64,000 nt of DNA from Bradyrhizobium sp. CCBAU 51627 (GTDB taxonomy: Bacteria > Pseudomonadota > Alphaproteobacteria > Rhizobiales > Xanthobacteraceae). Below are positions 7,486-29,512 of this stretch, one piece after another (position 1 is the stretch's first letter; each line of letters starts with the position of its first letter). A program made the translations under genes and the position numbers. The notes beneath the pieces are model-generated. The model saw nothing but the letters and a program-made list of their open reading frames with translations. It made no database searches and was not told where the DNA came from. The DNA is taken from positions 1 to 64,000 of the forward strand of contig NZ_LBJG01000093.1 in assembly GCF_028128765.1 (NCBI RefSeq), in the 5' to 3' direction.

Positions 7486-7514
7486 AATAAGAGGAACGGC
7501 CCGAAGGCCGCTCC
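7486..7514 (-). terminator. rho-independent terminator with UUCG tetraloop
   Basis: On the minus strand GGAGCGGCC, loop TTCG and GGCCGTTCC form a 9-bp stem with one G-U pair, then TCTTATTT. It lies 11 bp after the stop of the tape-measure-like gene. Confidence 0.75.
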
Positions 7515-7525
7515 CTGCCCTTTCC

Positions 7526-10415: not shown

Positions 10416-10477
10416 TCTGAAACTTCCTTTGAGCGCGCAAAATACCCGTGCGCGTGTCGGGTCAATCGCGAAACAGG

Positions 10478-10765: not shown

Positions 10766-10795
10766 AATGACTTTGGATCAGCTTCCTAGCCTGCC

Positions 10796-11014: not shown

Positions 11015-11131
11015 GTAAATCTCCCCATTTTGTGGATATGCAAAATTTGGGGCCCATCGGACAACAGGGCCTTTTCGCTGAGGAATCGACCGCCCCTACC
11101 CCTCAGCGGCTGCCGCGTAGAGCGCGAGCCT

Positions 11132-11431
11132 TCACAGCGCGCGCCGGCCTCGCTGGCCATGCTGCCGGTTATGGCAGCGCATGCACAGGGTACGCAGGTT
11201 GGCCAAGGTATCGGTCGAACCGGGCGTACCGCGTTCAATGATGTGATGCGCTGTTAGACGGTCGGTCGGTGTGGTGCAGAACTGTTCTGTGCACCGGTTA
11301 CCGTCGCGCTGCAGGCACGCGGCTCGTAGCGTTCGCCAGCCGGCAGACTTGTAAAAGGCGTCTGACTTGAAGACGGGTCGGACGTACGGCCTCCATTGAG
11401 GTGGCCGGAATTGCTGTGGTCGTGTTGGCAT
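11132..11431 (-). CDS. phage-type HNH endonuclease
   Basis: The product is 99 residues: a basic N-terminus (RPPQWRP), a GWRTLRAACLQRDGNRC segment, TAHHIIERGTPGSTDTLANL with the HNH histidines, and CMRCHNRQH with the second zinc cysteine pair. It starts at an ATG three bases after AAAGGA. Such small HNH nucleases normally sit beside the terminase genes and assist packaging; no terminase was recognised in this element, so here the gene is separated from its usual partner. Confidence 0.75.
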   Translation of the reverse strand: MPTRPQQFRPPQWRPYVRPVFKSDAFYKSAGWRTLRAACLQRDGNRCTEQFCTTPTDRLTAHHIIERGTPGSTDTLANLRTLCMRCHNRQHGQRGRRAL

Positions 11432-11525
11432 TGTTTCCTTTCGTGGTTGTTTCGATGGCGTTACAGCACGGTCAGCGCTATTTTATTTCATGCCTTGGCG
11501 TCTTACCCTTCGCGGAGGGTTCTCG

Positions 11526-11753
11526 ATGGATCAGCATCGGACAGCCTTGATTTTGTTTGCGCTCGCCCTGGGCGCCGTCATCGTGATCGCGTGTGCAATC
11601 ACGATGGAAAAGGTCAACCTTCGGACGGCGAGCAACGACGCGCCGCCGTATACGACGGGCCTTGCTAGACCACATGAACCGCTTGATCGGGCTCCCGGCG
11701 AGCCGCTACCGACCACAGGCGGCCCGGGTGGAGCGACTAGACAGCGGCCCTGA
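11526..11753 (+). CDS. single-pass membrane protein, 75 residues
   Basis: The ATG at 11526 follows GGAGGG by six bases. Residues about 6-26 are a hydrophobic helix (ALILFALALGAVIVIACAIT) followed by a hydrophilic Pro/Gly/Arg-rich tail. It faces the minus-strand ATPase gene. A holin, Rz-like or phage membrane role is possible, but nothing specific is recognised. Confidence 0.5.
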   Translation: MDQHRTALILFALALGAVIVIACAITMEKVNLRTASNDAPPYTTGLARPHEPLDRAPGEPLPTTGGPGGATRQRP

Positions 11754-11852
11754 CGCAGACACTGGCCAGCGCCTCGAACGCATCACGAGCCACGCCAGCG
11801 CATTTGAAGGGCGACCACCGCCCTGCATCCATCTCTGCCGGTTCGCGGGCCG

Positions 11853-11970
11853 CTGGGGTTCGAACCCCAGTGCGGGCTTCGAACCGCACAGGGGGTATGG
11901 GGGAGTGTGTGGACAGGCAGTTCGAAGGGATTCGAAGTCGTTCGAACCCAATTCGAACCCTCAGTTCGAA
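11853..11970. repeat. TTCGAA array at the 3' end of the RepA-type gene (candidate origin or operator)
   Basis: Seven TTCGAA palindromes start at 11859, 11878, 11921, 11931, 11941, 11952 and 11965; the last five are 10-13 bp apart, close to one helical turn. The first lies in a perfect 18-bp palindrome, CTGGGGTTCGAACCCCAG (11853-11870), followed without a gap by an imperfect 18-bp palindrome (11871-11888). The array runs from the intergenic region into the last codons of the ATPase gene. Iteron-like or operator-like use is inferred from spacing and position. Confidence 0.6.
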
Positions 11971-13091
11971 GTCGCCACCAATTGCGTATACCGACGCGAC
12001 GGCGGGCCAGTCACTTCGATCCGAAGCAAGCCAACATCTAGCAACCGCTGCATTGCACCGGCTAGCCTTTGGGTATCGAACCCCTTTGCGTCGGAATGCT
12101 TCGATATCTTCTTCGGGGCGTAGGACGGGCCGACGTTCGGGCCAAGCGTTTGACCTTGTCCAGTCAGCTTCAAGAACACAGACATGAAGACGTCATCCAC
12201 GCTCTTATTGACGAGCCGTTCAACTGCCGGGTCAGGCCCGTTGTCGAGCGCATACACCCCGTTATCCCACCGCATCGGGATCATCTCGCCAGTGCGCCCA
12301 TAGTTCGCCTTGACGACTTTCAGAACGCGCGCGTCCGGGTCTTTGTCGACTACCTCCATGTAGAGCCGGCTTCGCACGGAGTTATTCCAAGCCGTGCTGC
12401 CTGAAGTACCCGTCCCGCTGTTCAAGCCGGTAAGGCTTGGATGGCTCAACAGCAAAACGGCGCAATCGTTATCTATAGCCAACCCCCGAAGCATTGAGAC
12501 AAACTTGCGGACCTGAGCCCGGTTGATTTCATCGCCGCCGAATACGTCAGCACTAGGATCAATGACAATCAGCTTCGGGCGCAAAGCTCTTGCCTGCGCT
12601 TCCAGTTTGGCGAAGATTGTTGTGGCCTTCAGATTGCCGGTACGATCTGGCTCGGCCAGCACGGCGTCAGAACCAGCCAGAGGGATCAGCCGGACGCCTT
12701 CAAGGTCCGAGAGCTTTCGCCCTGCATACGTGACAATTGTCTCCAACCGCCTATGTAGTTCATCCGCTTCATCTTCAGCGCCGAAGTAGAGACATGGCCC
12801 TTCCGCCACATCCTTCCCGAACCACTGAATGCGAAGCGATGAAGCCACAATCAATTGCAAAACGATTTCGGTCTTACCCGACCCACCCGCGCCACTGAGG
12901 TTCGTTACCGTACGGTGCGGAATCCAGCCCTCGACGAACCATTGGCGCTCCGGGACCGCTTTACCTTGCCAATCGCGCGGGTCGATTACCGGCAACGGCG
13001 CGAGCAGCGGTGCTTGAAGGGTTCTAGGCTTAACCTGGCTATCAACCCAAGCCGCGCCAGCCGGAAATAATTCTGCTAGACTATATGTCAC
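11961..13091 (-). CDS. RepA-type replicative ATPase/helicase (AAA_25-like)
   Basis: The product is 376 residues. The Walker A motif is SGAGGSGKT (66-74), a Walker B (KLIVIDPS) lies near 175, and a LLLSHPS segment follows, the RecA/DnaB-like core of plasmid RepA-family hexameric helicases. The C-terminal 80 residues may form a winged-helix module. The GTG start at 13089-13091 overlaps the stop of the gene upstream (GTGA). Its last codons lie in the TTCGAA array. It probably unwinds DNA for replication of the element. Confidence 0.75.
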   Translation of the reverse strand: MTYSLAELFPAGAAWVDSQVKPRTLQAPLLAPLPVIDPRDWQGKAVPERQWFVEGWIPHRTVTNLSGAGGSGKTEIVLQLIVASSLRIQWFGKDVAEGPCLYFGAEDEADELHRRLETIVTYAGRKLSDLEGVRLIPLAGSDAVLAEPDRTGNLKATTIFAKLEAQARALRPKLIVIDPSADVFGGDEINRAQVRKFVSMLRGLAIDNDCAVLLLSHPSLTGLNSGTGTSGSTAWNNSVRSRLYMEVVDKDPDARVLKVVKANYGRTGEMIPMRWDNGVYALDNGPDPAVERLVNKSVDDVFMSVFLKLTGQGQTLGPNVGPSYAPKKISKHSDAKGFDTQRLAGAMQRLLDVGLLRIEVTGPPSRRYTQLVATSN

Positions 13092-13729
13092 CTAAACGCC
13101 TCCGGGATTGCGGCAATTGTTGCTATCCGCCAACGGGCGTCCGCCTCAAAGTAAGTACGAATGGACCCAACGGTATCGTCTATCCAGAAGCGCGAGAGTC
13201 CTTCATCGTCACCGAAGCCCCAATCCCACGCTTCCATAGCCGTACGGATATCGCTGCATTCGATCCGCTGAACAGCGACGAGTTCCTTCAATGCCGCCCG
13301 GCTAATCGAGGCGATGTGGCAAACCCCCGTGCAGCCGGACTGAAGCCAGTTCAGCGGATGCGCGTGAAGACGAATCGTCGACTGATTGATGTTGTCCCGA
13401 CCAAGCCACGAGGCGCGGCACGATACTGTTTCAAATGACCCGTCATCGCCGATCAGGAGCAAGTCGACGAATTGGCCTCCTTCATAGACCGGCACCGCGA
13501 ATGCGCAATACTTTGGCCCGACGTGTTCCTGCGGATAGATAGTGAAGTCATACCGGCCCGTCACGGAATTCCAGACGAAGCCGTAAGTGATCAATGCGGC
13601 CTTACCAATGCGCGCCGGATTAATATCGCGTTCTTCAAGCCACGTTCTGACACCGAATCCATCACTAACATTTTCAATGAACAGCCGCTCAACGTCCGCA
13701 GGATCTGGCAGCGTGTCGTCAATACTCAT
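13088..13729 (-). CDS. hypothetical protein coupled to the RepA-type ATPase (possible primase-associated)
   Basis: The product is 213 residues (MSIDDTLPDPADVERLF). The central part has beta-strand character (FAVPVYEGGQFVDLLLIGDD) and a conserved-looking WLGRDNINQS segment. Its stop overlaps the ATPase start and its start overlaps the preceding gene, so the three are one translational chain. Position suggests a replication role such as primase or loader, but no catalytic motif can be pointed to. Confidence 0.5.
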   Translation of the reverse strand: MSIDDTLPDPADVERLFIENVSDGFGVRTWLEERDINPARIGKAALITYGFVWNSVTGRYDFTIYPQEHVGPKYCAFAVPVYEGGQFVDLLLIGDDGSFETVSCRASWLGRDNINQSTIRLHAHPLNWLQSGCTGVCHIASISRAALKELVAVQRIECSDIRTAMEAWDWGFGDDEGLSRFWIDDTVGSIRTYFEADARWRIATIAAIPEAFR

Positions 13730-14055
13730 CAGGCAGCGGCTTTCACTTGCTGCAGATAGGACACAAGCGTATTCACAAAGTCATCAAACGTTCGGATTGT
13801 GCGCTGATATCCCACTCGCCTAACGACCGTCCGCAATGTCGCGTGCCAGAACTCGTCGGCCCAAGAGAAATGCGGGTCAAGCAGGCCCAATTGATATTCG
13901 GTCATGCTCTCGGCCTCGTTGGAAAATCTCTTCAGCAAATCGACGGCCAGCGCGTTACGCGGATCTTCAGGAAACTTTGATTGCAATGACGCGCGCCACG
14001 GAATGGCATGGTTCAGCGCGTATTTGACAGACTTCTTAAGTTCATTCTCTCTCAT
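13729..14055 (-). CDS. hypothetical protein, 108 residues
   Basis: The ATG at 14053-14055 (MRENELKKSVKYALNHAIP) follows AAAGAG and is preferred to a start 19 codons upstream. The protein is helical with aromatic residues (YQLGLLDPHFSWADEFWHA). The stop overlaps the next gene (TGATG). First gene of the replication-like trio; no family recognised. Confidence 0.5.
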   Translation of the reverse strand: MRENELKKSVKYALNHAIPWRASLQSKFPEDPRNALAVDLLKRFSNEAESMTEYQLGLLDPHFSWADEFWHATLRTVVRRVGYQRTIRTFDDFVNTLVSYLQQVKAAA

Positions 14056-14119
14056 AGTCTCTTTCTGAAATGAATTGGTGGCGCCCGGCGTACATCCGGC
14101 CAAAGGCGCCAACGTGTTT

Positions 14120-14647
14120 TTACGAGCGCACAGCCGCCGCCAATTCGGCCAGCGCGCGCTTCAGCCGCGCGCCTTCGTCGTCGTGCGATTTGACTCGGGT
14201 GATAAGTGATTCGGGATTCGATGGGCTCGTGACTACCGAGACCTCGTGCAGCTTAACGGAAATCAGCTTCCGCTTAATGTCGCTGTTGCGCGGCATCATT
14301 TGGAATTTGACAGGTGAAAAACCTATCGAAAGCCCGTCGAGACATTTATCCTTGATCAAGGCGTAAATATCGCGCGCGGTCGAGTTGCCCAGCGACAATT
14401 GCCCTTCACACCAAAGCCCGTACGGGTCGTCCACCATTTTCGTCCAGCGGCCTATCGGAAGCATGTCACTAGTAAGAGGCCCCATGTTATGCATTAGCAT
14501 CATGCACGGAAGCTTGCCCTTGCGAGCCCAATCCTTAAGCGTATCGGTGTAAGCGCCGCGTTCGACAACATCAGCATGACTGTCTCGAACGCCGTATACT
14601 GAAGCCCAACCGCAAATCGACCCATCGTCAGCTATGTTGACGCTCAC
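14120..14647 (-). CDS. HK97-family prohead protease
   Basis: The product is 175 residues, the usual size. It starts with the strand pattern IADDGSICGWASVYG and D-x-H-x-D-V-V-E-R-G, then has the catalytic histidine in MLMHN (about 53) and the serine in DGLSIGF (about 107), followed by the SPSNP loop seen in this serine protease family. These enzymes cut scaffold and capsid proteins during head maturation. No capsid or portal gene is adjacent here, which is unusual. It overlaps the 60-residue gene upstream by four bases. Confidence 0.85.
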   Translation of the reverse strand: MSVNIADDGSICGWASVYGVRDSHADVVERGAYTDTLKDWARKGKLPCMMLMHNMGPLTSDMLPIGRWTKMVDDPYGLWCEGQLSLGNSTARDIYALIKDKCLDGLSIGFSPVKFQMMPRNSDIKRKLISVKLHEVSVVTSPSNPESLITRVKSHDDEGARLKRALAELAAAVRS

Positions 14648-14826
14648 GGCTCCTCCGCAAGCCGCTTAAGAGCTTCAACGAACTTGTCGCCTGCGGCGTC
14701 GACTTCAGATGAATGTTCTTCGAGACAGACAATCTTTCCACCCTTCAACTCGAAAACTCCGGGAGGTAAACTTGAGAAGTCAAATCGCTTGATGCTGGCG
14801 CAAGAATATTCTTTGTAGTCCGACAT
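14644..14826 (-). CDS. small acidic hypothetical protein
   Basis: The product is 60 residues (MSDYKEYSCASIKRFDF), acidic in the C-terminal half. It overlaps its upstream neighbour by one base and the protease by four, so it is translated within a tight operon. No family is recognised. Confidence 0.55.
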   Translation of the reverse strand: MSDYKEYSCASIKRFDFSSLPPGVFELKGGKIVCLEEHSSEVDAAGDKFVEALKRLAEEP

Positions 14827-15395
14827 CAGCGAAGCTCCTCTGGCACGCTCGAAAGATGGCCACCCGCAACAAGCGCGCGGAACAGATTGCCGAGAGCGCC
14901 ACCCTTCTCGCGCGCGGGGCCAAATATGGCTTCTGCTTCGTTCGCGAAATCGAGAATGTGCGGATAGTAGCCGATCGATTCTGAAAGAAGTTGGCCCTTC
15001 CAGTCATCCAATTCTACGTATGCAGCGTACGTCTGTGCAAGGCCGTCCGTGAATCTGCTCGCGATCTTGTTAAACTCTGGCCGCTTGGATTTGAGATAGC
15101 GAGCCGTCTCTGACGCGCTCTTCACAGCGGAGTTCTTTGCGTGCAGAGCAATAGCGGCGTCGTAGTCGGCGATTTGACCCTTTAGATTTTCAATCGCCGC
15201 GTTAATGCTCTCGCGTGGCGGTGGGGTCTCGCCGGCTGCTATCATGGCAGCGCGCTTCTCGCGATCTTCGGTAGCGCCTTTCATCTTCCACAGGTCGTCG
15301 GCATTGGCAACAAGCGCGGCCCGTTCGGCCTGAAGTTTAGCTGCACGCTCTTCGTCGGCGCGCACGATGGGTGAATAGTCGGAAAGTGTTTGCAT
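14826..15395 (-). CDS. coiled-coil hypothetical protein
   Basis: The product is 189 residues. Residues about 12-100 are Ala/Glu/Lys-rich with heptad character (DEERAAKLQAERAALVANAD), and the C-terminus is more globular. It precedes the prohead protease gene. A scaffold-like or head-assembly role is possible by position, but nothing specific is recognised. Confidence 0.5.
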   Translation of the reverse strand: MQTLSDYSPIVRADEERAAKLQAERAALVANADDLWKMKGATEDREKRAAMIAAGETPPPRESINAAIENLKGQIADYDAAIALHAKNSAVKSASETARYLKSKRPEFNKIASRFTDGLAQTYAAYVELDDWKGQLLSESIGYYPHILDFANEAEAIFGPAREKGGALGNLFRALVAGGHLSSVPEELR

Positions 15396-15425
15396 ATCGA
15401 AATATCCTGTGTAGTTGAAAATAGG

Positions 15426-16010
15426 TTACGCTGCCTTATGCAGCGCCACGCCCAAGCGTTGAATGATGTTGCCGGGCAACGAGAAAGTCTTTCGAACGTT
15501 GTCGTCCTTCCACGGCCGGTCTTGCGGCCCGTAGATTGATTCGGCCTGCAGCCCGTCCGTAGCGTCGGCTACAATGCGAATTCGCGGACTGGCTCCGCAA
15601 TCAAGTTCGAGACGGCTTCTGCTAGCGTGCAATGCAATTTGGAGGTCAAGCATGTGCGCGCTATCGTCGCTCTGTGCCGTCAGAACTTCCTTCGCACCAC
15701 CGAAGGAGTCGAGCCAACGTGCGAACGTCGTACCAGCCTTGACGCCTACGCTGTTCCGTAGGTTGAAGTATGTTACCGCCGCGTCAGCCGCCGCGCGTGA
15801 CGGGACGTCAGCAAGCAGCGCGAAAGTCCAAAGCGCGATGTGCCGGCTGTCAAGCAGTTCACGCGCCCGGCCCGCTGAGCGGGGAATTACACCGGCCTCG
15901 TTCAGGCGCCGGTAGATCGTTTCGACGTAGGACTCGGACAAGCCGAAGAGGACTGCCAGTAGTGGTATCAAGTCATAGGCGGCCATAGGCCGGCCTGCCT
16001 TTCTGTTCAT
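15426..16010 (-). CDS. hypothetical protein with HTH-like N-terminus
   Basis: The product is 194 residues from the ATG at 16008-16010 (MNRKAGRPMAAYDLI); an ATG nine codons in is an alternative and neither ribosome-binding site is strong. The segment LLAVLFGLSESYVETIYRRLNE looks like a helix-turn-helix. No family is recognised. It begins the operon that runs to the prohead protease. Confidence 0.5.
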   Translation of the reverse strand: MNRKAGRPMAAYDLIPLLAVLFGLSESYVETIYRRLNEAGVIPRSAGRARELLDSRHIALWTFALLADVPSRAAADAAVTYFNLRNSVGVKAGTTFARWLDSFGGAKEVLTAQSDDSAHMLDLQIALHASRSRLELDCGASPRIRIVADATDGLQAESIYGPQDRPWKDDNVRKTFSLPGNIIQRLGVALHKAA

Positions 16011-16144
16011 TGGAGAACGTTCAAAGTTTTTTCGCGAAATGAGCAAGGGACGCAGCACGTCGCGATTACGTGCTGCGCCCTACATCGCAGTTGGCTGCGA
16101 TGGCGCGGCAGGGACAGGCCGCGTGAAAATGTTCTGGAAAGGAA

Positions 16145-16160
16145 CCCGGCCGGAGCCGGG
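16145..16160 (-). other. GC-rich hairpin
   Basis: CCCGGC and GCCGGG pair across CGGA. On the minus strand it is followed by TTCCTTTCC, so it may end transcription of the 304-residue gene at 16270 or act as a processing stem. The T-run is weak. Confidence 0.4.
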
Positions 16161-16269
16161 CTAAGTCTCGAAAGAATCGAAGCCGGGCTGAAAACTCAAC
16201 TTCTATTCTTATAATAGCCCATCGCTATTACGTGGTGTCGACACAGAAAAAGCTCAGACATACCAATGA

Positions 16270-17184
16270 CTAAGCGGCCACCTTGATAACCGGCCCGCGT
16301 GCTTGATTCCAATAAGAGGCGCACCTGCCGCCACTATTTGGCGGGTATACAACGGCTGGCCAGTTCAGCGTACCTACCAACGGCCAACGGTCTTGCGGTC
16401 GCTCGCCCTTCTCTTCCAACCGATCTAGGCCGGCATAGAAGCGAGACAAGTTGCGAAGAGCGGCGCGAAGCATTCCCTTGCCGCACGCGCTAGCGCTGGC
16501 TCGGTCTGTAAATCCTTCAGTCTCGCCCACCATTCGTGCTGTCCAATTGCGCGCGATCACGGCGCGCAGCAATTCGAAGTCATCTCCAAGCACGTCGGCA
16601 GCGAGGTCGGTGACCTCGCGGGCATACAGAATCCGCAGAGCAGTCGGTGTATCATCCACGTTATCGACAACTCCGCATTCTGCGGGTGTGTCCGTATCTT
16701 CGAATTCAAGTTCATCGGACAACGCCAATGCGTCATCGGTGTCGACAGATGAAACATCGCCGGAGAAGCCCTCAAGGAACGACAACCTAACCTCCCGCCA
16801 ATCGTTCGCTTCCACAGGGTCACCATCTGCGATGGCCAGTTCTGTCTTTAAACGTTGTGCAGCGAACCAATGTCGACGGTTCTCCATCTCATTGATACCG
16901 AGTTCGCCGCGCTCGTACATCTCTTTCAAGTGATATCGTTCGAGCTTGGCTGGTACGTTGTCGTTTGCTGACGTCAACGACGGCCCGTTGTCTAGCGTAT
17001 TTAATGCTTTGCCGGCCTTCACGGGCTCGTCCGGTCGCAATGCGTAGTCGCGCCAGACACGCTGACCGCTCAACGCGACGACGTGTCCAAGGGCTTCGCT
17101 GCCAATGTTGGCTGATCGTCGTTGCCCATCTTCAATGGCAATGATCGGAGGCGATGTGCCGACTTCGTCTGTAACTGTTCTCAT
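16270..17184 (-). CDS. hypothetical protein, about 304 residues
   Basis: The ATG at 17182-17184 (MRTVTDEVG) is chosen; a TTG six codons upstream is possible. The middle is acidic (DVSSVDTDDALALSDELEFED) and the C-terminus contains SACGKGMLRAALRNLSRFYAG and a tryptophan-rich end. It is followed by a hairpin and sits between the AlpA-like gene and the structural and replication operon. No family is recognised. Confidence 0.5.
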   Translation of the reverse strand: MRTVTDEVGTSPPIIAIEDGQRRSANIGSEALGHVVALSGQRVWRDYALRPDEPVKAGKALNTLDNGPSLTSANDNVPAKLERYHLKEMYERGELGINEMENRRHWFAAQRLKTELAIADGDPVEANDWREVRLSFLEGFSGDVSSVDTDDALALSDELEFEDTDTPAECGVVDNVDDTPTALRILYAREVTDLAADVLGDDFELLRAVIARNWTARMVGETEGFTDRASASACGKGMLRAALRNLSRFYAGLDRLEEKGERPQDRWPLVGTLNWPAVVYPPNSGGRCASYWNQARGPVIKVAA

Positions 17185-17371
17185 CCATATTCTTTCGATC
17201 AATATGTTTGCGCCGCCTTATCGACGGTCGCCCATTCCGTTGTTACGCTTGGTAGTTTATGTGCTATCTGTGCTGCATCGCCCCCCCACATTCCTGTTCC
17301 AAAATTTGCGAGCGCGAATTCGTCACCGCCCGGTGGAGCGGTGCTGCGATTGCGTATGTGCGGTGTGTGAG

Positions 17372-17590
17372 CTAAGCCGCGTCCGGCAAGTTATCGTTGA
17401 ATGCCTTGATTGCAGACGCGCGCCAAGCAACGCTGTTCGGACCTAAACGAACAGCAGTCGGGAAACGTCCATCCTTCATCATGACGTACAACGACGATCG
17501 CTTAAGGCCCGTCGCAGCAAGTACGGCTGGCAAGCGTAGCAACGGATCGATGCTCGCAGGCAACCAGTTGTCGTTTGCAGCGGTAGTCAT
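17372..17590 (-). CDS. AlpA-family DNA-binding regulator
   Basis: The product is 72 residues (start at 17588-17590, or four codons upstream at 17602). The order LLRLPAVLAATGLKRSSLYVMMKDGRFPTAVRLG, written here only as its pattern L-x-ATGLxRSxxYxxMxxGxFP, is the AlpA/excisionase helix-turn-helix signature, followed by VAWR and a C-terminal helix. These factors activate excision or early genes of P4-like elements. A perfect palindrome lies 16 bp upstream of the start. Confidence 0.8.
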   Translation of the reverse strand: MTTAANDNWLPASIDPLLRLPAVLAATGLKRSSLYVMMKDGRFPTAVRLGPNSVAWRASAIKAFNDNLPDAA

Positions 17591-17605
17591 TCTCCCCCAC
17601 ATACA

Positions 17606-17622
17606 TAGGGCGACTCGCCCTA
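17606..17622. promoter_or_regulatory. perfect palindrome upstream of the AlpA-like gene (candidate operator)
   Basis: TAGGGCGA, one base, TCGCCCTA: an 8+1+8 perfect inverted repeat, 16 bp upstream of the start codon at 17590. Its position suits an operator for autoregulation or for an unknown element repressor. No transcription start has been identified. Confidence 0.5.
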
Positions 17623-17881
17623 TTTCTTCCCCTCTAGAAACACTTACGCCCCCGACGCTTGAGCGAACGGAGGCGATCTATGATGCCGGAAACTTTTCGC
17701 GGCGCTGATTGCAAGTCGAATTCATAGCACGAAACGGCGTATTTTTCCAGTGTATCGATAAATCGTCGCACGGTTCTTATAGCCGATTTCACCGCATATT
17801 TGTAGGTGTATCGCGAAATTCTCTTACGCCTCGACCGCAGTCGTTATAGCCGTTCCCAAGGTGTCCGCAGAAACTCTGTCG

Positions 17882-19129
17882 CTACCTACGTGGCCCCTCC
17901 AGCAATGTCTTCGCTGGCTCTGCTCCCTCCAAAATCAGGTCCGCCCAGATCTGCGCAAGCTCCATGCGTCGCTGCAGATGCAGCGCGCGGTCGTACGCCG
18001 CTTTCACCGCGTTCTCCGGCTTGTGCGCCAACATCAACTCAATGACGGCATGATCGGCGCGGAAGCGCTCGTTCATGACGCTGCTAAACGTTGATCGCCA
18101 GCCGTGCGGGACATGTTTGTGATGATACCCGGCCCGGTTAAGTAGGTAGCCAATTGCGTTCTCGCTCATTGGCTTATGGACGTGACGGGTGTTCGGGAAA
18201 GCTAGCTGTCCGCTTCCAGTAATCGAATGCAGAGCCTTGATCACGTCCTGCGCCTGCGTCGACAGCGGCACAAGGTGATCGTTCGCGTCATCGTATTTGC
18301 GGTCCTTCGTCAACTTCATCCTCACCGCCGAAATACGCCAGACGTTGTCCTTCGCCGCCCGAAGCTCGTCCCATGGTGTCGTAATCAACGTTCCGGGGCG
18401 TAGCGCCGTCAATGCAAGCAAACGCAGCGCCAGCTTCGTTACCGCGTGGGCTGGTTCAGCTTCGGCCTTACGGAGCATCGCGCGAGCTTCGCCAAGGTCA
18501 GTGACGGCTGGCTGCTTGCCACGCTTGATTGGCGCCAATGCCCGCTTGACCGTGGCTGCTGGGTCATTGACGCACTTGCCGCACGCGATGGCGTATTGGA
18601 AAACCTCGCTGATGCGCTGACGCGTCCTGTGCGCCGTCTCGCGGGCCGTGGCTTCGATAGGACGTAGAGCCTCGATGACGTGGGGCGGTTCAATCGCGGT
18701 CACGGGCAACGCGCCTATGGCGGAGAACACGCGGTCCAACGAGCCGATGACGTCCGACGCGTGGCGCGGGCTCCACCTTTCCTTGTTCAGTGCGTGCCAG
18801 TCCCGCGCGATCCGCTCGAAGGTGTCGGTGCTGGCTCGGGCCGCTTTGACCGCGTCCCGTTTCCTACGTTCCGTAGGGTCTTGGCCCTGCCGTTTAGCGT
18901 CTCGTGCCTCGTCTCTTGCGGTTCTCGCGTCTGACAGGCTGACAGTTGGATAGTGCCCGACCGTAAAAAACGTGTCCTTGGCCCCGAGGCGGTACCTATA
19001 TCGCCATATCTTGCTGCCTGCGGGGGTGACGAAGAGATAAAGGCCGCCACCATCTACGAGCCGGTAGGGCTGGCCCTTGGGCTTGGCGTTTTTGCAGGCG
19101 CTGTCGGAAAGCAGTCTTTCCCCGGCCAC
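17882..19129 (-). CDS. P4-type tyrosine integrase of the left element
   Basis: The product is 415 residues with the DUF4102-type N-terminal arm domain (YRLVDGGGLYLFVTPAGSK). Catalytic residues visible are R244 (ALRPGTL), H342-x-x-R345 (HGWR), H369 (LAHK) and Y379 (AAYDRA), with a lysine near 274. It starts at a GTG (19127-19129) 160 bp from the tRNA-Ser 3' end. It should catalyse insertion at, and excision from, the 16-bp tRNA-derived repeat. Confidence 0.9.
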   Translation of the reverse strand: MAGERLLSDSACKNAKPKGQPYRLVDGGGLYLFVTPAGSKIWRYRYRLGAKDTFFTVGHYPTVSLSDARTARDEARDAKRQGQDPTERRKRDAVKAARASTDTFERIARDWHALNKERWSPRHASDVIGSLDRVFSAIGALPVTAIEPPHVIEALRPIEATARETAHRTRQRISEVFQYAIACGKCVNDPAATVKRALAPIKRGKQPAVTDLGEARAMLRKAEAEPAHAVTKLALRLLALTALRPGTLITTPWDELRAAKDNVWRISAVRMKLTKDRKYDDANDHLVPLSTQAQDVIKALHSITGSGQLAFPNTRHVHKPMSENAIGYLLNRAGYHHKHVPHGWRSTFSSVMNERFRADHAVIELMLAHKPENAVKAAYDRALHLQRRMELAQIWADLILEGAEPAKTLLEGPRR

Positions 19130-19130
19130 T

Positions 19131-19162
19131 TCGGATACCCCATTTTCTCAATCGGATACCCC
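19131..19162 (+). repeat. direct repeats TCGGATACCCC, possible integrase arm sites
   Basis: TCGGATACCCC occurs at 19131-19141 and 19152-19162, just upstream of the integrase start and 125 bp from the tRNA. The ATACCC core matches the pair found at the other end of the element. Arm-type binding is inferred. Confidence 0.4.
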
Positions 19163-19285
19163 GGTATTTACCCCGTTCAGCGCTCGGTGGCTAGGCCATC
19201 TACTACCGTTCCGGGCTCGTCTCGTCGGCTTAAGTGACCGTTTTATTTGGTTTTTTGGACTTAGTCGGATCGCGCTGGAACAGTC

Positions 19286-19301
19286 ACTGGCGGAAGGGGT
19301 G
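19286..19301. repeat. tRNA-proximal attachment site of the left element
   Basis: These 16 bases are identical to 2677-2692 and lie over the 3' terminus of tRNA-Ser, leaving the tRNA complete. This is the expected outcome of insertion by a P4-type integrase. Confidence 0.8.
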
Positions 19302-19377
19302 GGATTCGAACCCACGGTACCCTTGCGGGTACGCCGGTTTTCAAGACCGGTGCCTTAAACCACTCGGCCACCCTTCC
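19288..19377 (-). tRNA. tRNA-Ser (anticodon UGA)
   Basis: The gene is 90 bases including an encoded CCA (19288-19290). The acceptor stem GGAAGGG pairs with CCCTTCC, the anticodon loop reads CTTGAAA with anticodon TGA inside the ACCGG/CCGGT-type stem, there is a long variable arm (TACCC-GCAA-GGGTA), and the T-loop is GTTCGAATC. The long variable arm and UGA anticodon identify tRNA-Ser. It is the shared integration target of two elements. Confidence 0.95.
19339..19377. repeat. tRNA-internal attachment site of the right element
   Basis: These 39 bases are identical to 34018-34056. The block begins exactly with the seven-base anticodon loop (TTTCAAG on the plus strand) and ends at the first base of the tRNA. 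The loop is the likely 7-bp crossover region of the tyrosine integrase. Confidence 0.85.
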
Positions 19378-19432
19378 GTAGCAACGATTTCAATGGGTTA
19401 GCAGTGGGGCGGAGTGAACGAACAGAGCACGC

Positions 19433-19450
19433 TACTACCGCTTTACTACC
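19433..19450 (+). repeat. TACTACC direct repeat pair, possible integrase arm sites (left end)
   Basis: TACTACC occurs at 19433-19439 and 19444-19450, 11 bp apart, between the tRNA and the integrase gene; the second copy overlaps the integrase stop codon. The same pair occurs at the right end (33880-33898). Confidence 0.5.
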
Positions 19451-20612
19451 CAACGTCGTCGGCGCGCTTGTTTATGGCGGCGCGCAGGGCCACGTCAACC
19501 GCCGCGGCAGCTTCTCCCTGCATGTTCGGCATCAGGTGGCTGTAAATGTCCATGGTGATGGCAATCGAAGAGTGCCCTAGCCGCTCCTGGACGACCTTTG
19601 GGTGGACCTTGGCAGCCAGCATGTGGCTGGCGTGAGTGTGCCGCATCTTGTGCAGCGTCATGCCCCATTCGCTGAGGAAGGCCGACATGACATGCGTCAG
19701 ACTGCGCGGCTGCAACGGCGAGCCGTCGAATTGCGTAACGACGTGCCAATTGTCGTCTGCGCGGACGCCGAGCCGCAGAAGCTCTTCGGCCTGATCAAGC
19801 CGCCAGCGGCGCAACTCATCAATGGCAAGCGACGGCAGCGCCACGGTTCGCGCCTTCCCGCTCTTCGCTTCCTTCTCGCGGATCGCGCCGGCATCGGTTT
19901 GTTCGGTGCTGGCAACCACTGCAAGCTGACCCGAATCAAGGTCGACCGACCGCCAGCGGAGCGCGGTAATCTCGCCGCGCCTCAAGCCGCACAACGTAGC
20001 CAGAATCAAGGGAACGAACAGGCGCCGTTCACGGGCGGCATCAAACACGACGGCGGTTGTCGGAGCGTCGATCGTCGGCACCGGCTTGCGTTCGATCTTG
20101 GGCCGATCCCGCTTTTCGAGAAGCGCCGCCGGGTTCCGGACGATCAGTTTCCAGCGCTCGGCTTGGTCAAGGGCGGAATACAGCACGCGGTGCATATGAT
20201 GAACCGTCCGGGGTGATAGACCACCCTTCCCGTCGCACCGGCCGCTTTCCAGGGCGGTGGCATATGCTCCGCTAATGTCGATCGGTTGGAGCTTTGACAG
20301 CACCTTGCCGCCAAGCAACGGGTTGATATTCTTCGTGGCGATCTGCTCATAGCGTTCATGGGTGCGTGGCGAGACGTTCGGCCTGATATGCTTGAGCCAC
20401 CGATCAAAGAACTGCGCCAAGGTCGTCTTGGAGGGCTCAACATAATCGCCGCTGCCCATTTCGGTTATGAGCTTGCTGCAAGCGGTCTGCGCCTCCCGCT
20501 TTCCCTTGGCATCCGGTAGCTTATGCCATTTGCGCTTGCGCTTTCCCTCTGCATCGCGGGTATCAATCACCGCGTACCAGACTTTGCCCTGTAGCGTGAC
20601 ATGCCCCTTCAT
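19446..20612 (-). CDS. tyrosine integrase of the right element
   Basis: The product is 388 residues: a short arm-binding N-terminus with a WYAVIDTRDAEGKRK strand pair, a SAM-like core-binding domain (about 65-155) and a catalytic domain with R211 (GLRRGE), K250, H321-x-x-R324 (HKMRH), H347 (GHSS) and Y357 (DIYSH). It reads towards the tRNA, 68 bp away. Its start overlaps the stop of the ribbon-helix-helix gene by four bases, so both are co-translated. It should act on the anticodon-loop att sites. Confidence 0.9.
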   Translation of the reverse strand: MKGHVTLQGKVWYAVIDTRDAEGKRKRKWHKLPDAKGKREAQTACSKLITEMGSGDYVEPSKTTLAQFFDRWLKHIRPNVSPRTHERYEQIATKNINPLLGGKVLSKLQPIDISGAYATALESGRCDGKGGLSPRTVHHMHRVLYSALDQAERWKLIVRNPAALLEKRDRPKIERKPVPTIDAPTTAVVFDAARERRLFVPLILATLCGLRRGEITALRWRSVDLDSGQLAVVASTEQTDAGAIREKEAKSGKARTVALPSLAIDELRRWRLDQAEELLRLGVRADDNWHVVTQFDGSPLQPRSLTHVMSAFLSEWGMTLHKMRHTHASHMLAAKVHPKVVQERLGHSSIAITMDIYSHLMPNMQGEAAAAVDVALRAAINKRADDVG

Positions 20613-20836
20613 TTCTCGCCCCTTTTTAGTGCAGCGATGACTTTCGCAGTGACCTGATTCGAAAACCTCTCAAGGGCTTCGGCTAAATTGTCGCGCTTAA
20701 ACGACTCGTCTAGGCGGTGCGTGATCTCGCCCGTGAGGGTACGCCCGTTCTTCTGAGCCGCGCTTTCCAGCTTGGCCAATTGGATCGGATAAATCCGAAG
20801 GCGCAAATGCGTCGCTTCCACTGGCTTACGTGCCAT
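20609..20836 (-). CDS. ribbon-helix-helix (Arc-like) regulator
   Basis: The product is 75 residues. The pattern THLRLRIYPIQLAKLESAAQKNGRTLTGEI is that of Arc/CopG-type proteins: a beta strand, then helix, turn and helix. The ATG follows AGGAGAG. It is translationally coupled to the integrase gene and transcribed away from an intergenic region with two palindromes, so it may repress its own operon and the divergent AlpA-like operon. Confidence 0.7.
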   Translation of the reverse strand: MARKPVEATHLRLRIYPIQLAKLESAAQKNGRTLTGEITHRLDESFKRDNLAEALERFSNQVTAKVIAALKRGEK

Positions 20837-20885
20837 GTGATCTCTCCTGCTTCGAAACTCACAATAGCACGGGCTAAACGCGATT

Positions 20886-20901
20886 GGTACAAAAATGTAC
20901 C
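20886..20901. promoter_or_regulatory. operator-like palindrome 1
   Basis: GGTACAAAAATGTACC is an inverted repeat of GGTACA around AAAA, 50 bp upstream of the ribbon-helix-helix start. A second near-copy lies 52 bp to the right. Together they frame the divergent promoter region. Confidence 0.6.
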
Positions 20902-20937
20902 TTAACTAACTATTTTAGATTCTGCCGGCAGGCTTTG

Positions 20938-20952
20938 GGTACAAAACGTACC
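20938..20952. promoter_or_regulatory. operator-like palindrome 2
   Basis: GGTACAAAACGTACC repeats the design of palindrome 1 with a spacer shorter by one base. It is 24 bp upstream of the AlpA-like start. A dimeric or tetrameric element repressor probably binds both. Confidence 0.6.
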
Positions 20953-20975
20953 ACTCACCCCGAAAGGCTTCGGTC

Positions 20976-21179
20976 ATGAATGACGAGTTGAAAATGCTGC
21001 TATCACGCCCAACCGCCTCGATCCCTGATGTCGGCCGCGTCTGCTTTGGACTTGCCCGGCAGGCCAGTTACGCGGCTGCAAAGAACGGCGACATTCCGAC
21101 AATAAAGGTCGGCCGAAGTCTCTTTGTACCGACCGCAGCGCTGCGCAAAATTCTCGGTATTGAAGCCGTCGCGTCATGA
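20976..21179 (+). CDS. AlpA/excisionase-like DNA-binding protein
   Basis: The product is 67 residues. SIPDVGRVCFGLARQASYAAAKNGDIP, then IKVGRSLFVPTAALRKILG, is the layout of the HTH_17/excisionase family. It is divergent from the regulator and integrase pair and overlaps the next gene by four bases. Excision or early-gene activation is the usual role. Confidence 0.7.
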   Translation: MNDELKMLLSRPTASIPDVGRVCFGLARQASYAAAKNGDIPTIKVGRSLFVPTAALRKILGIEAVAS

Positions 21180-21337
21180 GCCAAACCGAAGTTCGCCCCG
21201 CGACGGCCAAGGAAATCCGCATGTTCGAACGCTTGAAGGGTCCGGTACCCGAGGGCGAACAACTGCGCATTCACGTCGCTTTTGAAAATGGCGCGCGTAT
21301 TCGCTTCTTCGTTTTGGAGCCAACCGGTGTTCACTAA
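21176..21337 (+). CDS. 53-residue hypothetical protein
   Basis: MSQTEVRPATAKEIRMFERL begins at an ATG overlapping the AlpA-like stop (ATGA), and the protein ends in a beta-rich stretch (IRFFVLEPTGVH). The overlap shows it is translated with the AlpA-like gene. No family is recognised. A hairpin follows five bases after the stop. Confidence 0.6.
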   Translation: MSQTEVRPATAKEIRMFERLKGPVPEGEQLRIHVAFENGARIRFFVLEPTGVH

Positions 21338-21341
21338 CGAA

Positions 21342-21380
21342 AACCCGCCGCGGCTTGCTCAAGGCCGGGCGGGTTTCAAT
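21342..21380 (+). terminator. hairpin after the AlpA-like operon
   Basis: AACCCGCC pairs with GGCGGGTT, extended by CGGC/GCCG around one bulged G, then TTTCAATTT. It closes the two-gene AlpA-like unit. Because it covers the TTG at 21355, that codon is an unlikely start for the primase gene. Confidence 0.65.
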
Positions 21381-21411
21381 TTCAATCTTCGGCAGCCTTG
21401 CGAGAACTGCA

Positions 21412-23451
21412 TTGCCAAACTCCTACCACGAAAAGGTTGCAGATGCAACTAAATTCTTCGACTTCGCCGAACCGCTCGGCCTTGCCTTGGTCAAAGTTCA
21501 TCCTGGTGCCAAAAATCCGGTGGGTGAAGGATGGCAGAATCTTTGGAGCCGTGATCGAGTCGATTGGGAACAATGGGTATCGGAAGGCTTCAATATCGGC
21601 GTTCACGCTGGGGCCTCCGGACTTGTCATCATTGATCTGGACGTGAAGCATGGCGGCCTAGACGCCGTCCGGCTACGCGTCGATACCTGGTGCCGCAACA
21701 ACGGCATCGACGCCCTGTCGCATCACGTGACGACGCCGAGCGGTGGACAACACATCTATCTGCGCGTCCCTCCCGGTGTCGACGCAATGACGCTTGCCGG
21801 TAACACGGCCGGCGCTCTCGGTAAGGGCGTCGACATACTCGCAGGCAACAAGCAAGCACTGGCGCCGGGGAGCGCTGTCGGCAACGGAAAATACGTTTTC
21901 CAGGATGCCACGGTCTACGCTGTGCCGGAGTTCGTGCTCGATTTCTGCAAGCGCGCTCCGGTGGAAGCGCCCGTGGCAAAGGTGGGCACGTTCGATCGCG
22001 GCGACGTTGCCACCCTGGTCAACTGGCTCAATGAGCGGGACGGGTTCGACTCGTATGACGATTGGTGCCAACTCGGCATGGCGCTACGCGCCGAGTTCGG
22101 CGATGACGGCAAGCTCCTATGGGCCTTGTCACATAACGACACCGTTACGCCGGACGTCATCGAAACCAAATGGCGCAGCTTCGCGACCGACGCCAAGCCA
22201 GGCGCCGTGACCCTGGCCACGTTCATGCGGCGCGCACATGATCTCGGTTGGACCGGTAAAGTTCGCCAATCGGTCGCTTCAATGTTCGGCGGTGTGGCGC
22301 AGCTTGCCACCCTGCCCGCCATCGCGTCGCCGCCTTTGGCGCCTGGCGTGCCGCTACCCTCGATTGACCAAGATGACGACCTGCCGACGCCGGAACTGTG
22401 TTTCCCCGAAAACTTTGGCGACGATTTTCGACCGCCTAGTTATCTGATCGACGGCATCTTGCAACGTCGTTTTTGCTATTCGATGACCGCTCAGACCGGC
22501 ACAGGAAAGACCGCAATCGGGTTGCTCTTTGCTGCGCACGTTGCGACCGGAGAAGCGCTCGGCGCTCGGCGCGTCAAGCGCGGTTGGGTGTTGTATTTCG
22601 CGGGCGAGAACCCCGACGACGTCAAGGCCAGATGGTTCGGTCTCTGCGGAGAGATGAGAATCGACCCTAAAAAGACTAACGTCATCTTCGTTTACGGCGT
22701 AACGCCTCTTTCGAAAACAGCGGAGCGCATTGCCCGCAAGCTTGCCGAACGCGGTGTTAGCTTGTCGTTTGTCGTCGTCGACACCGCCGCGGCCTATTTC
22801 GAGGGTGATAACGATAACGACAACGTGCAGGCCGGCAACCACGCGCGCACGCTGCGTTCACTGGTCAACCTGCCTGGTGAACCCTGCGTCATGGTGCTCT
22901 GCCATCCGACCAAGAATGCAAAAGAGATCGGCGACATGGTTCCGCGCGGCGGCGGTGCGTTCTTGAATGAGGTTGACGGCAATCTAGGGGCGGCCCGCGT
23001 CAGCACGACGATCGCAATGCAGACCGTGGGCAAGTTTCGCGGCCCCGAGCTTTCGCCCATACATTTCGGGCTGCATGTAGTGCGCGATCACCCGCGGTTG
23101 GTCGACGAAGACGGGCGCCCGATGCCAACCGTTGTTGCTCACATCGTTAGCGAAGCCGGCGCGGCGGCGCAGGCGGCGGAAAGCGAGACCGCCGAAATTC
23201 AAATGCTCCGGGATATCGGCGACCATCCCGGCGACGCAACACGAAAGCGCGCCGCTCGTCTCGGATGCCATCACGACACCGTCGCAAGCCGCATCAAACG
23301 ATTGGTTTCGCGGAAGATGGTCGACGACAGCGGGTTCAAATTGAAGTTGACGAGCAAGGGCGAGAAGGAATTGAACGCCTTGGACCGGGATAAATCGCTG
23401 TCGGAGGGGTCCGACAACGCGTTTCCTTTTCCAGTGCCCGGAAGGAAGTGA
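21412..23451 (+). CDS. bifunctional primase-polymerase/RepA-type helicase
   Basis: The product is 679 residues from a TTG at 21412, chosen because a longer frame from 21355 would begin inside a terminator hairpin. The N-terminal prim-pol domain shows IDLDVKHGG (acidic pair about 75-77) and SGGQHIYL (histidine about 114). A PriCT-like segment (SYDDWCQLGMALR) follows near 215. The helicase domain has Walker A QTGTGKT (about 361-367) and a LCHPTKN motif. A C-terminal winged helix (RLGCHHDTVASRIKRL) may bind the origin. It should prime and unwind the element DNA. Confidence 0.8.
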   Translation: MPNSYHEKVADATKFFDFAEPLGLALVKVHPGAKNPVGEGWQNLWSRDRVDWEQWVSEGFNIGVHAGASGLVIIDLDVKHGGLDAVRLRVDTWCRNNGIDALSHHVTTPSGGQHIYLRVPPGVDAMTLAGNTAGALGKGVDILAGNKQALAPGSAVGNGKYVFQDATVYAVPEFVLDFCKRAPVEAPVAKVGTFDRGDVATLVNWLNERDGFDSYDDWCQLGMALRAEFGDDGKLLWALSHNDTVTPDVIETKWRSFATDAKPGAVTLATFMRRAHDLGWTGKVRQSVASMFGGVAQLATLPAIASPPLAPGVPLPSIDQDDDLPTPELCFPENFGDDFRPPSYLIDGILQRRFCYSMTAQTGTGKTAIGLLFAAHVATGEALGARRVKRGWVLYFAGENPDDVKARWFGLCGEMRIDPKKTNVIFVYGVTPLSKTAERIARKLAERGVSLSFVVVDTAAAYFEGDNDNDNVQAGNHARTLRSLVNLPGEPCVMVLCHPTKNAKEIGDMVPRGGGAFLNEVDGNLGAARVSTTIAMQTVGKFRGPELSPIHFGLHVVRDHPRLVDEDGRPMPTVVAHIVSEAGAAAQAAESETAEIQMLRDIGDHPGDATRKRAARLGCHHDTVASRIKRLVSRKMVDDSGFKLKLTSKGEKELNALDRDKSLSEGSDNAFPFPVPGRK

Positions 23452-23627
23452 AATGCATCCGACAAAAGTCCGACAAGACTCCGACAGAACGCGCGAAAAA
23501 CCCTGCAAAACAAGGCTGTCGGACTCCGACAAACGATTCCGACAGCACCACACTTGCTGCGCTGCGTTTACGCAGCAGCAGTGGTTGTCGGAGGGGGTCT
23601 TTCACTAGGGAATCCGACAGTCCGACA
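23399..23627. repeat. TCCGACA iteron-like array (candidate replication origin)
   Basis: Eleven exact copies lie in 229 bp: eight TCCGACA (23410, 23458, 23469, 23480, 23525, 23538, 23613, 23621) and three reversed TGTCGGA (23399, 23517, 23586). Several are spaced exactly 11 bp. The array starts in the last codons of the primase-helicase and fills the gap after it, together with a small hairpin (GCTGCG-TTTA-CGCAGC at 23561-23576). This is the expected picture of an iteron origin next to its replication gene. Confidence 0.75.
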
Positions 23628-23699
23628 AACGACCCTGGAAACAGCACAACGAGGCGAAACTGCCGCGTTTAGTGCAAATAACTGTTGAGAGTGCGACAC

Positions 23700-24119
23700 G
23701 TGAATAAACAGACGAACAGACATCTGCCGAGCACGGCGTGGAAACCTGGCCAGAGCGGCAACGCCGCCGGCAGGCCGCCCGGCGCGCGCCAGAAGATCGC
23801 GGAAAAGCTGATCGCCGACATTGCCGACGTGTGGGAAGCGTGCGGCAAAGACGTGTTGAAGCGCTTGGCGATCGAAGAGCCGGCGAAGCTCGCCACGATC
23901 GCGTATGGCCTGGTGCCGAAGGATATCTTCCTCAACGTCGCGCAGACGGCGCCTGGCGGCTTAGAGCCGGACGAATGGGCAACGTTGCGTCGCGTTCTCG
24001 ATATCATCCAAGCAACCGCGCCCGATGGCGTAGCGCCGTCACTGGTGTTCGAAACTATTGAGCACGCGTTGCGCGCCGAGTTTGCGCGACCGATCGCGCT
24101 GCCCGCGCCGCCCTACTGA
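23700..24119 (+). CDS. DUF5681-type protein, possible small terminase-like
   Basis: The product is 139 residues from a GTG at 23700 preceded by GAGAG; a TTG at 23685 would add five residues. The N-terminal WKPGQSGNAAGRPPGARQKI matches the KPGQSGNPxGRP signature of DUF5681, often seen in phage genes next to packaging modules. The rest is helical. The packaging role is inferred from family context. Confidence 0.6.
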   Translation: MNKQTNRHLPSTAWKPGQSGNAAGRPPGARQKIAEKLIADIADVWEACGKDVLKRLAIEEPAKLATIAYGLVPKDIFLNVAQTAPGGLEPDEWATLRRVLDIIQATAPDGVAPSLVFETIEHALRAEFARPIALPAPPY

Positions 24120-24126
24120 TGCCGTT

Positions 24127-24145
24127 GGTAGTAAATCCGGTAGTA
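24127..24145 (-). repeat. internal inverted copy of the TACTACC pair
   Basis: GGTAGTA occurs at 24127-24133 and 24139-24145, spaced 12 bp; on the minus strand this is the same tandem TACTACC arrangement found at both ends of the element. It lies just after the DUF5681 gene. Confidence 0.5.
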
Positions 24146-24313
24146 AGTGCCCTGCTCTTCTGCGCATCTCATTGAGATTCCTCGCGCTGCGCGACGACAA
24201 GCACCGGTTCTGTAGTTCGGTCACGCCACAACGGCTTACGCCGTTGTCGTTTCGCTAAGTTTTGTGTGGGACATTAGGGCTACAAACGGTTCTTACCGCA
24301 ACCACCACAGCAA

Positions 24314-24348
24314 CCCGTCTTGGCCCTGAAAAGCCAGGCGGGATTTTT
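24314..24348 (+). terminator. rho-independent terminator in front of the structural operon
   Basis: CCCGTCTTGGC and GCCAGGCGGG pair imperfectly around CCTGAAAA, followed by five T. It separates the replication region from the rightward structural operon, so it may act as an attenuator or antitermination site. Confidence 0.6.
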
Positions 24349-24370
24349 CAGTTTCGAAGGGACGCAGATC

Positions 24371-24655
24371 ATGACGGCAGAAGCCGCCCACGATCACCAG
24401 AAACGACCGCTGGTGCATTCCCGCACTTTGCGGGTCAGATTGCAGCCGGAGCTGGTTGACGCGATTGTCGATGCTGCTTCCCGCCGCGGCATGAAGGCAA
24501 GCGCCTGGTTAAGGCACGCCGCGATCACCGTCGCCATGCTCGAAGGCGTTCTGTTTCCTGATGCACTTGCTGGCGGCAAGCGCCGTTACGCACGGATCGA
24601 AGGCGGGGCCATTGTCGACGTCCAGTATCTCGCCGACCAGGTGGAGGAAGCCTGA
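24371..24655 (+). CDS. small DNA-binding-like protein (ribbon-helix-helix pattern)
   Basis: The product is 94 residues from the ATG at 24371, downstream of GAAGGGA. RTLRVRLQPELVDAIVDAA, then GMKASAWLRHAAI, matches the strand-helix-helix pattern of Arc/MetJ-like proteins. Its stop overlaps the collar gene start (TGATG). First gene of the structural operon; it may regulate it. Confidence 0.55.
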   Translation: MTAEAAHDHQKRPLVHSRTLRVRLQPELVDAIVDAASRRGMKASAWLRHAAITVAMLEGVLFPDALAGGKRRYARIEGGAIVDVQYLADQVEEA

Positions 24656-25641: not shown

Positions 25642-25642
25642 C

Positions 25643-29510: not shown

Positions 29511-29512
29511 CC

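Follow-up and report, generated by a model that had tools for sequence, protein, structure and literature searches.

Short-repeat arrays at the 3' ends of RepA-type ATPase genes are candidate replication origins of two adjacent Bradyrhizobium elements

We analysed a stretch of 64,000 nucleotides from Bradyrhizobium sp. CCBAU 51627 (contig NZ_LBJG01000093.1, positions 1 to 64,000; hereafter the window), in which two small, virus-like integrated elements, called left and right here, appear to lie side by side at a tRNA-Ser gene. In both, an array of short repeats straddles the 3' end of a gene for an AAA_25 ATPase. Each array probably represents the iterons of a replication origin belonging to the element itself, served by the initiator-helicase which the adjoining gene is predicted to encode. 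From sequence comparisons we give this reading a probability of roughly 0.8. It draws on direct observations, i.e. the position of the arrays, the generality of this position, helical spacing in the left family, covariation between a protein residue and a repeat base, and hairpins around the distal left copies. Origin function is suggested because of the helicase family and because the same placement is known from Staphylococcus aureus pathogenicity islands (SaPI) and other phage-inducible chromosomal islands (PICI) and from the staphylococcal cassette chromosome SCCmec.

The left array comprised seven copies of TTCGAA within 112 bp, spaced by 19, 43, 10, 10, 11 and 13 bp, and the right array eleven copies of TCCGACA/TGTCGGA within 229 bp, spaced by 11, 48, 11, 11, 37, 8, 13, 48, 27 and 8 bp (Table 1). 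Both counts and positions agreed with an earlier reading of the window, the original prediction. That prediction had put the arrays inside the 3' ends of the genes. They do begin in the last codons, but the bulk of each is downstream of the stop codon, with only one of the seven left and two of the eleven right copies before it. Among all 7-mers of the 64 kb, TCCGACA was the most clustered (11 in 250 bp), followed by GTTCGAA (8). In 60 dinucleotide shuffles of positions 2677-34055 the maximum was 4 copies of a 7-mer in 250 bp as compared to the 11 observed; for 6-mers it was 6 in 120 bp as compared to the 7 of the left array. Both arrays are beyond chance, the left one only just when judged on the 6-mer. 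Chance repeats were ruled out by the 7-mer clustering, the shuffles and a comparison with the 3' ends of other open reading frames (see below). Because the two distal left copies are located within short inverted repeats, the left array is made up of five tandem and two hairpin copies. When treated as single-stranded DNA, the two distal copies paired with one another no less well than either folded on its own. The sequence CTGGGGTTCGAACCCCAG was first taken for an attachment site in a tRNA T-arm; its place agrees with that of the distal hairpin copy in the layout of the family, and the left attachment repeat was located elsewhere.

The two array-ending genes encode related proteins. For the left ATPase Pfam returned an AAA_25 and a KaiC ATPase domain only, and a profile search matched RSF1010 RepA (1g8y, 1.6e-16). 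An AlphaFold2 (AF2) model from 20 sequences, with a predicted local distance difference test (pLDDT) score of 86, had the RSF1010 helicase RepA (1nlf) as its best fold match and ended in a helix-helix-helix-strand-strand succession at residues 288-373. The model of the right protein, which was poor before about residue 350, matched other RecA-type ATPases best. Searches with the C-terminal part alone gave no clear match to a known winged helix, so the label of a winged helix rests on topology. The original prediction had spoken of different proteins; with AAA_25 found in both by Pfam, two unrelated proteins could be ruled out. By sequence both ATPases are of one family, AAA_25 or RSF1010 RepA-type, with a predicted role as helicase and a predicted C-terminal winged helix.

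To assess generality each 300-bp tile of a locus was scored by its most over-represented 7-mer, and we determined in how many loci the top-scoring block was the one at the ATPase 3' end. This was the case for 37 of 53 ATPase genes from family and class genomes and for 56 of 74 named genome loci (1.9 expected; six of 80 loci were left out for a short 3' flank, and two of the 74 are shared with the 53-gene set). The pooled sets gave 91 top-ranked loci out of 125 distinct ones. For viral loci the numbers were 58/63 for the left type, where three short and 14 identical loci of 80 had been left out, and 36/71 for the right type after omission of nine identical loci of 80, with 1.8 expected in each case. 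Finally, the 3'-end block was first in 23 of the 30 phylum loci with the strongest AAA_25 matches (3.1 expected; one of the 30, L379, is the G122 gene already contained in the 53-gene set). A score of 8 was reached at 40 of 74 ATPase 3' ends, but at only 2 of 552 3' ends of other open reading frames. About two hundred related loci carried an array at the ATPase gene end, with differing repeats; named records with such an array are Wolbachia phage WO, Enterococcus phage EFC-1 and an Azospirillum plasmid locus. No 3'-end array was found in three named phages that were scanned, Escherichia BUCT618, Caulobacter GB2A and Proteus ZX7, a comparison which did not include MT837765 as it has no 3' flank. 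The data support 3'-end placement as general among AAA_25 ATPase genes. The original prediction had considered it possibly general and had proposed a search for over-represented short repeats at the 3' ends of related ATPase genes; conducted with 7-mers, this search showed enrichment. What it had called convergence between the two elements looks like a trait of the AAA_25 family.

The relatives analysed were the best 80 of 154 named genome loci for the left ATPase, and the best 80 of 317 and the best 80 of 102 in the viral searches. Single-protein scans yielded no relatives on viral contigs; these were found with alignments as the query. The 80 named relatives of the left ATPase were alphaproteobacterial by title, and the nearest one, from Bradyrhizobium erythrophlei (69%), carries the array. 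In 384 other class genomes no right-type ATPase was found outside the family (E ≤ 1e-25). Some individual loci deviated. The left-ATPase relatives L065 (G122) and L110 (58-59% identity) lack an array and have a small frame resembling a helix-turn-helix protein directly after the gene. The frame in G122 has 79 amino acids and starts 19 bases past the ATPase stop, and reading by eye revealed a comparable one downstream of the ATPase in B. japonicum SZCCT0148. Such arrayless genes possibly are replication genes that have been repurposed. Because some loci scored as arrayless hold imperfect repeats, as seen by eye in L143, counts of exact 7-mers can miss arrays. In L187, a metagenome-assembled Pleomorphomonas genome, the ATPase gene is followed at a distance of about 3.2 kb by an array of six GTTGGAA, perhaps a relocated origin or a second element. 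In L030 and L025 (the G155 and G061 genes) the array precedes the stop codon, at about -145 to -41, so that the iterons are translated; in L030 this results in repeated LPTAFQ-like peptides at the C-terminus.

If the ATPase reads the array next to its gene, protein and repeats should change together. In 52 non-redundant left-type sequences, protein columns were compared with motif positions. The strongest pair was residue 368, in the wing of the predicted winged helix, and base 4 of the TTCnnnC-type motif, with a z of 18.7, while the next pair had 10.7. In the 57 of 83 left motifs that were usable, Arg was paired with C 43 times, Val, Thr or Ile with A ten times, Tyr with G three times and Phe with C once; the rule fits 56/57. 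Because the R-C pair dominates, switches are the informative cases. Parsimony on a tree of the ATPase part required 9 base changes, 10 residue-class changes and 10 joint changes. On a tree of the winged helix without residues 366-369 the numbers were 13, 17 and 17, while with shuffled labels there were 32.3 joint changes on average and never fewer than 28. Base 4 was predicted correctly in 39 of 40 held-out viral loci, the single miss being an ambiguous motif, and in all four cases with a base other than C. When the nearest training protein was less than 80% identical, 28 of 28 were correct, three of them with a non-C base. The held-out set was derived from 63 loci by removal of two weak and 16 unalignable ones and then of 5/45 without a predicted residue. 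Weaker associations linked residue 322 to base 6 (34/40 held out, where always guessing A would give 26/43) and residue 367 to base 2.

Such covariation might reflect linkage only, when gene end and array are swapped as one block without any contact. The wing codons are indeed within tens of bases of the array, and the histories of ATPase and array can differ by recombination. Yet in pairs of winged helices with at least 45% identity, residue 368 differed in 208 of 209 pairs with a differing base 4. With the same base 4 it differed in only 17 of 732 pairs (45-75% identical). The next-best column gave 59% and 23%, respectively, and the changes recur on the tree of the winged helix itself. Thus we consider mere linkage extremely unlikely. 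The residue-base covariation, weaker in the right family, indicates that the adjacent ATPase probably reads the repeats, and for the left family it predicts a specificity code of R-C, Y-G and T/V/I-A at residue 368 and base 4. In the right family the top columns for motif base 4 were 643, 644 and 641, all in the predicted recognition helix. The commonest pairs of residue 644 were Q-A (8), E-C (5) and R-G (5) in 39 sequences. These pairs recall familiar protein-DNA contacts.

The repeats themselves differ from element to element. Left-type motifs include TTCCAAC, TTCCACC, TTCGAAC, TTCAGAC and TACCAAC, right-type motifs TGTCGGA, TGTTCCG, CGTTCCA and CGTATCG. Gaps of 10-12 bp between neighbours of the same orientation made up 146/289 in the left family, 117/211 in the left-type viral loci and 154/319 when left and right families were pooled. 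The near-helical spacing stated in the original prediction holds for the five left tandem copies and the left family; it applies to the right array only in part. Many left-type arrays have a tandem block starting within a few bases of the stop and then inverted copies, nearly all at +56 to +144. When arrays with the palindromic motif TTCGAA are disregarded, 63/113 of these inverted copies sit within perfectly paired stems of 6 bp or more, as against 24/536 tandem copies and 3.6% of inverted copies with shuffled flanks. A small right-type group keeps its site map despite the change of motif; the window array coincides with G050 at 11/11, with G061 at 10/11 and with G237 at 8/11 sites, a group that was chosen after the maps had been seen. 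It also shares a TTTA-loop hairpin with compensatory stem changes, a feature that is not general in the right family. Comparison of the window map with G212 and with L272 was not significant. In right-type arrays the region from +40 to +120 from the stop was AT-rich relative to the locus (+0.11 to +0.13), which was not seen in left-type arrays.

Several results weigh against the arrays being origins. The gene 3' end was not top-ranked in 35 of the 71 right-type viral loci, and the two relatives of the left ATPase next to B. erythrophlei, G122 (59%) and B. japonicum SZCCT0148 (58%), lack the array. In the left family 26 motifs could not be aligned to TTCCAACC, seven of those being of the GTGCAAC type, and 35 of the 40 held-out predictions were the common R-C pair. 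The sole exception among the pairs of winged helices that differ in base 4 consisted of two Phe368 proteins, 78% identical, with C and G. The z values of the three right-family columns (7.8, 6.6 and 6.6) were barely above background, with 6.5 for the next column, so the covariation of the right family is suggestive only. Right-family gaps of 10-12 bp (8/30 and 20/84) were not helical. A fixed array geometry across motifs was unsupported, as p ≤ 0.05 was obtained for 26 of 414 right-family pairs (21 expected) and 26 of 996 left-family pairs (50 expected). Left-family arrays were not rich in AT, with a 30-bp stretch of at least 70% AT in 15/124 of them as compared to 29/47 in the right family; the best 30 bp at the window arrays had 53% AT (left) and 60% (right).

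The lack of AT-rich DNA in the left arrays would fit a protein that binds its array as a control site, for incompatibility, copy control, autoregulation or as a required accessory site, while replication starts elsewhere in the element. No more follows from the covariation alone than a probable recognition of the array by the protein. Phage P4 provides a precedent. Its crr, with type 1 repeats, begins about 46 bp past the stop of alpha, a location like that in the window, and its annotation calls it necessary for replication. The annotated origin is another site, about 4.5 kb away, which has the same repeats and scores higher, the alpha 3' end ranking second after P4's own origin in a scan of the P4 genome. 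As far as the published excerpts go, a winged helix binds the P4 repeats; P4 differs from the window in the second, distant repeat set at its origin and in its bacterial-type (TOPRIM) primase. On the other hand, in most left-type 20-kb loci no second dense 7-mer array outranked the one at the gene end. Moreover, in SaPI and PICI the region immediately 3' of rep is described, in the passages drawn on, as a functional origin, and a pri-rep-ori segment drives replication (PMC6092414). We regard a mere control site as unlikely.

A further point against an origin comes from some mycobacterial phages, where five direct repeats directly downstream of repA are reported to form the partition site parS. 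The window arrays could likewise be partition or packaging sites bound by another protein, and the right element does encode an Arc-like protein. Yet the base in the repeat tracks an amino acid in the ATPase itself, and throughout the phylum sample arrays accompany AAA_25 genes. A partition or packaging site thus appears very unlikely.

We favor the view that the arrays are origin iterons, and the following mechanism may be envisaged. The array-ending gene would encode a RepA-type helicase (AAA_25) with a sequence-specific C-terminal winged helix, to which a primase-polymerase is additionally fused at the N-terminus in the right protein. The winged helix would bind the repeats; since the left repeats are about one helical turn apart, several subunits could line up along the same face of the double helix. 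The helicase would then open the origin and load itself, and the fused or a separate primase would start synthesis; binding, loading, firing of the origin and any role of the hairpins in priming are what we infer. With the binding domain encoded right beside its target, initiator and origin would stay linked and specificity could drift via paired changes of contact residue and repeat. A wider proposal, which we put forward tentatively, is that AAA_25 initiator-helicases make up a large class of self-contained replicons with the origin at the end of their own gene and with a short residue-base code (left 368: R-C, Y-G, T/V/I-A; right 644: Q-A, E-C, R-G). The distal iterons of the left type would be carried in hairpins that merge double-stranded loading and single-stranded priming sites.

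Comparison with known systems was based on selected passages of the respective literature, and the likenesses and differences hold to that extent. In SaPI and PICI, as in the window and its relatives, iterons are located immediately 3' of the replication gene, and the C-terminal domain of Rep recognises them (PMC6092414, PMC7581432). SaPI Rep has DUF927 or D5_N/Primase_Cterm domains (PMC7581432), while the window ATPases are of the AAA_25 (RSF1010 RepA) type; for them Pfam gives AAA_25/KaiC ATPase (left) and Prim-Pol/PriCT_2/AAA_25 (right) and none of the PICI Rep domains. The two iteron sets around an AT-rich region of PICI have no counterpart at the window arrays, where no 30 bp exceed 53% (left) or 60% AT (right); arrays of the left family consist of one tandem block plus hairpin copies and lack an AT-rich centre. 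SCCmec Cch2 resembles the window in that the C-terminal domain of a helicase binds direct repeats downstream of its gene, but the helicase is D5-type, there are three 5-nt iterons, and the primase CCPol-MP is separate. The orf904 of Sulfolobus pRN1 is a prim-pol-helicase with a C-terminal winged helix and an essential region directly downstream of the gene; unlike in the window, it has a superfamily 3 (SF3) helicase and one large stem-loop without iteron structure. The RSF1010 (IncQ) oriV is like the left element in its RepA-type helicase, the best fold match of the left model, and contains iterons plus the primase sites ssiA/ssiB. In RSF1010 (RepA, RepB', RepC) helicase, initiator and primase are three proteins, whereas in the window helicase and presumed initiator domain form one fused protein, and the left-family hairpins contain the iteron itself. 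With short direct repeats about a helical turn apart beside a presumed initiator gene, the left array and its family conform in layout to an iteron-type origin; the right array adjoins its gene without helical spacing. According to these passages, a position of the origin 3' of the replication gene has been published before, for SaPI/PICI and SCCmec and partly for P4. The layout looks convergent only with respect to these three systems, whose initiators are described as other helicase types. Among the open-licence titles listed we found none on origins of AAA_25/RepA-type prophage elements, on a residue-base code or on iterons in hairpins. New here, as judged by those titles, are the finding that AAA_25 elements share this placement, the residue-base code and the iterons carried in hairpins.

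Coordinates are collected in Table 1. The single tRNA-Ser (region 19286-19377) is flanked by both elements, with differing repeat cores (16 bp as compared to at least 38 bp). Each element has an integrase and some phage structural genes, i.e. head protease and tape measure in the left, large terminase and a tail protein in the right element. At 5363-7347 (+) the left element encodes a PtuA-like ATPase (PADLOC 4.7e-162), and immediately after it a PtuB-like HNH protein (2.5e-65); by sequence the two are a Septu-type anti-phage defence pair. The frame at 13088-13729 had no match in Pfam or PHROGs, no credible match in the PDB and no match to a known primase.

Table 1. Positions of the arrays, genes and elements in the window
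Feature	Position	Strand	Remarks
Left array, seven TTCGAA	11859, 11878, 11921, 11931, 11941, 11952, 11965		span 11859-11970
Left tandem block, five TTCGAA (11921, 11931, 11941, 11952, 11965)	11921..11970	.	layout also seen in family
First distal left copy, in hairpin	11870..11889	-	stem GTGCGG/CCGCAC, loop TTCGAAGC
Second distal left copy	11853..11870	-	perfect inverted repeat CTGGGG-TTCGAA-CCCCAG
Left RepA-type ATPase gene	11961..13091	-	376 aa, AAA_25 (Pfam 6.2e-33)
Predicted winged helix, left protein, codons 288-373	11973..12230	-	AF2 topology H-H-H-E-E
Tyr368 codon	11988..11990	-	wing residue covarying with iteron base 4
Right ATPase gene	21355..23451	+	698 aa; Prim-Pol, PriCT_2, AAA_25 only (Pfam; AAA_25 8e-19)
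Predicted winged helix, right protein, codons 600-684	23152..23406	+	AF2 topology, resembles left end
Right helix 640-652	23272-23310	+	contains best covarying residues 641, 643, 644 (suggestive only)
Right iteron array, eleven TCCGACA/TGTCGGA	23399..23627	.	229 bp
Right copies with orientation	23399-, 23410+, 23458+, 23469+, 23480+, 23517-, 23525+, 23538+, 23586-, 23613+, 23621+
Hairpin with TTTA loop between right array groups	23556..23579	+	stem changes compensatory in four related arrays (G050 x2, G061, G237)
Left element (putative bounds)	2677..19301	.	16-bp repeat ACTGGCGGAAGGGGTG at 2677-2692 and 19286-19301
Right element (putative bounds)	19339..34055	.	repeat (38 bp or more) at 19339-19376 and 34018-34055
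tRNA-Ser	19288..19377	-	apparent attachment site of both elements

The replication origin is known for only a few prophages and satellites. If the arrays are origins, a simple rule would find the likely origin of many AAA_25 elements from their sequence, it would name a residue that helps to set origin specificity, and the natural motif changes would lend themselves to studying how an initiator and its iteron copies change jointly. If the class-wide proposal for AAA_25 elements were true as well, origin, initiator and compatibility group could be deduced from sequence alone. The comparison also suggests that helicases of several families are fused to an initiator whose binding sites lie at the end of the gene encoding it, so that a position beside the codons for the DNA-binding domain may be under selection in its own right.

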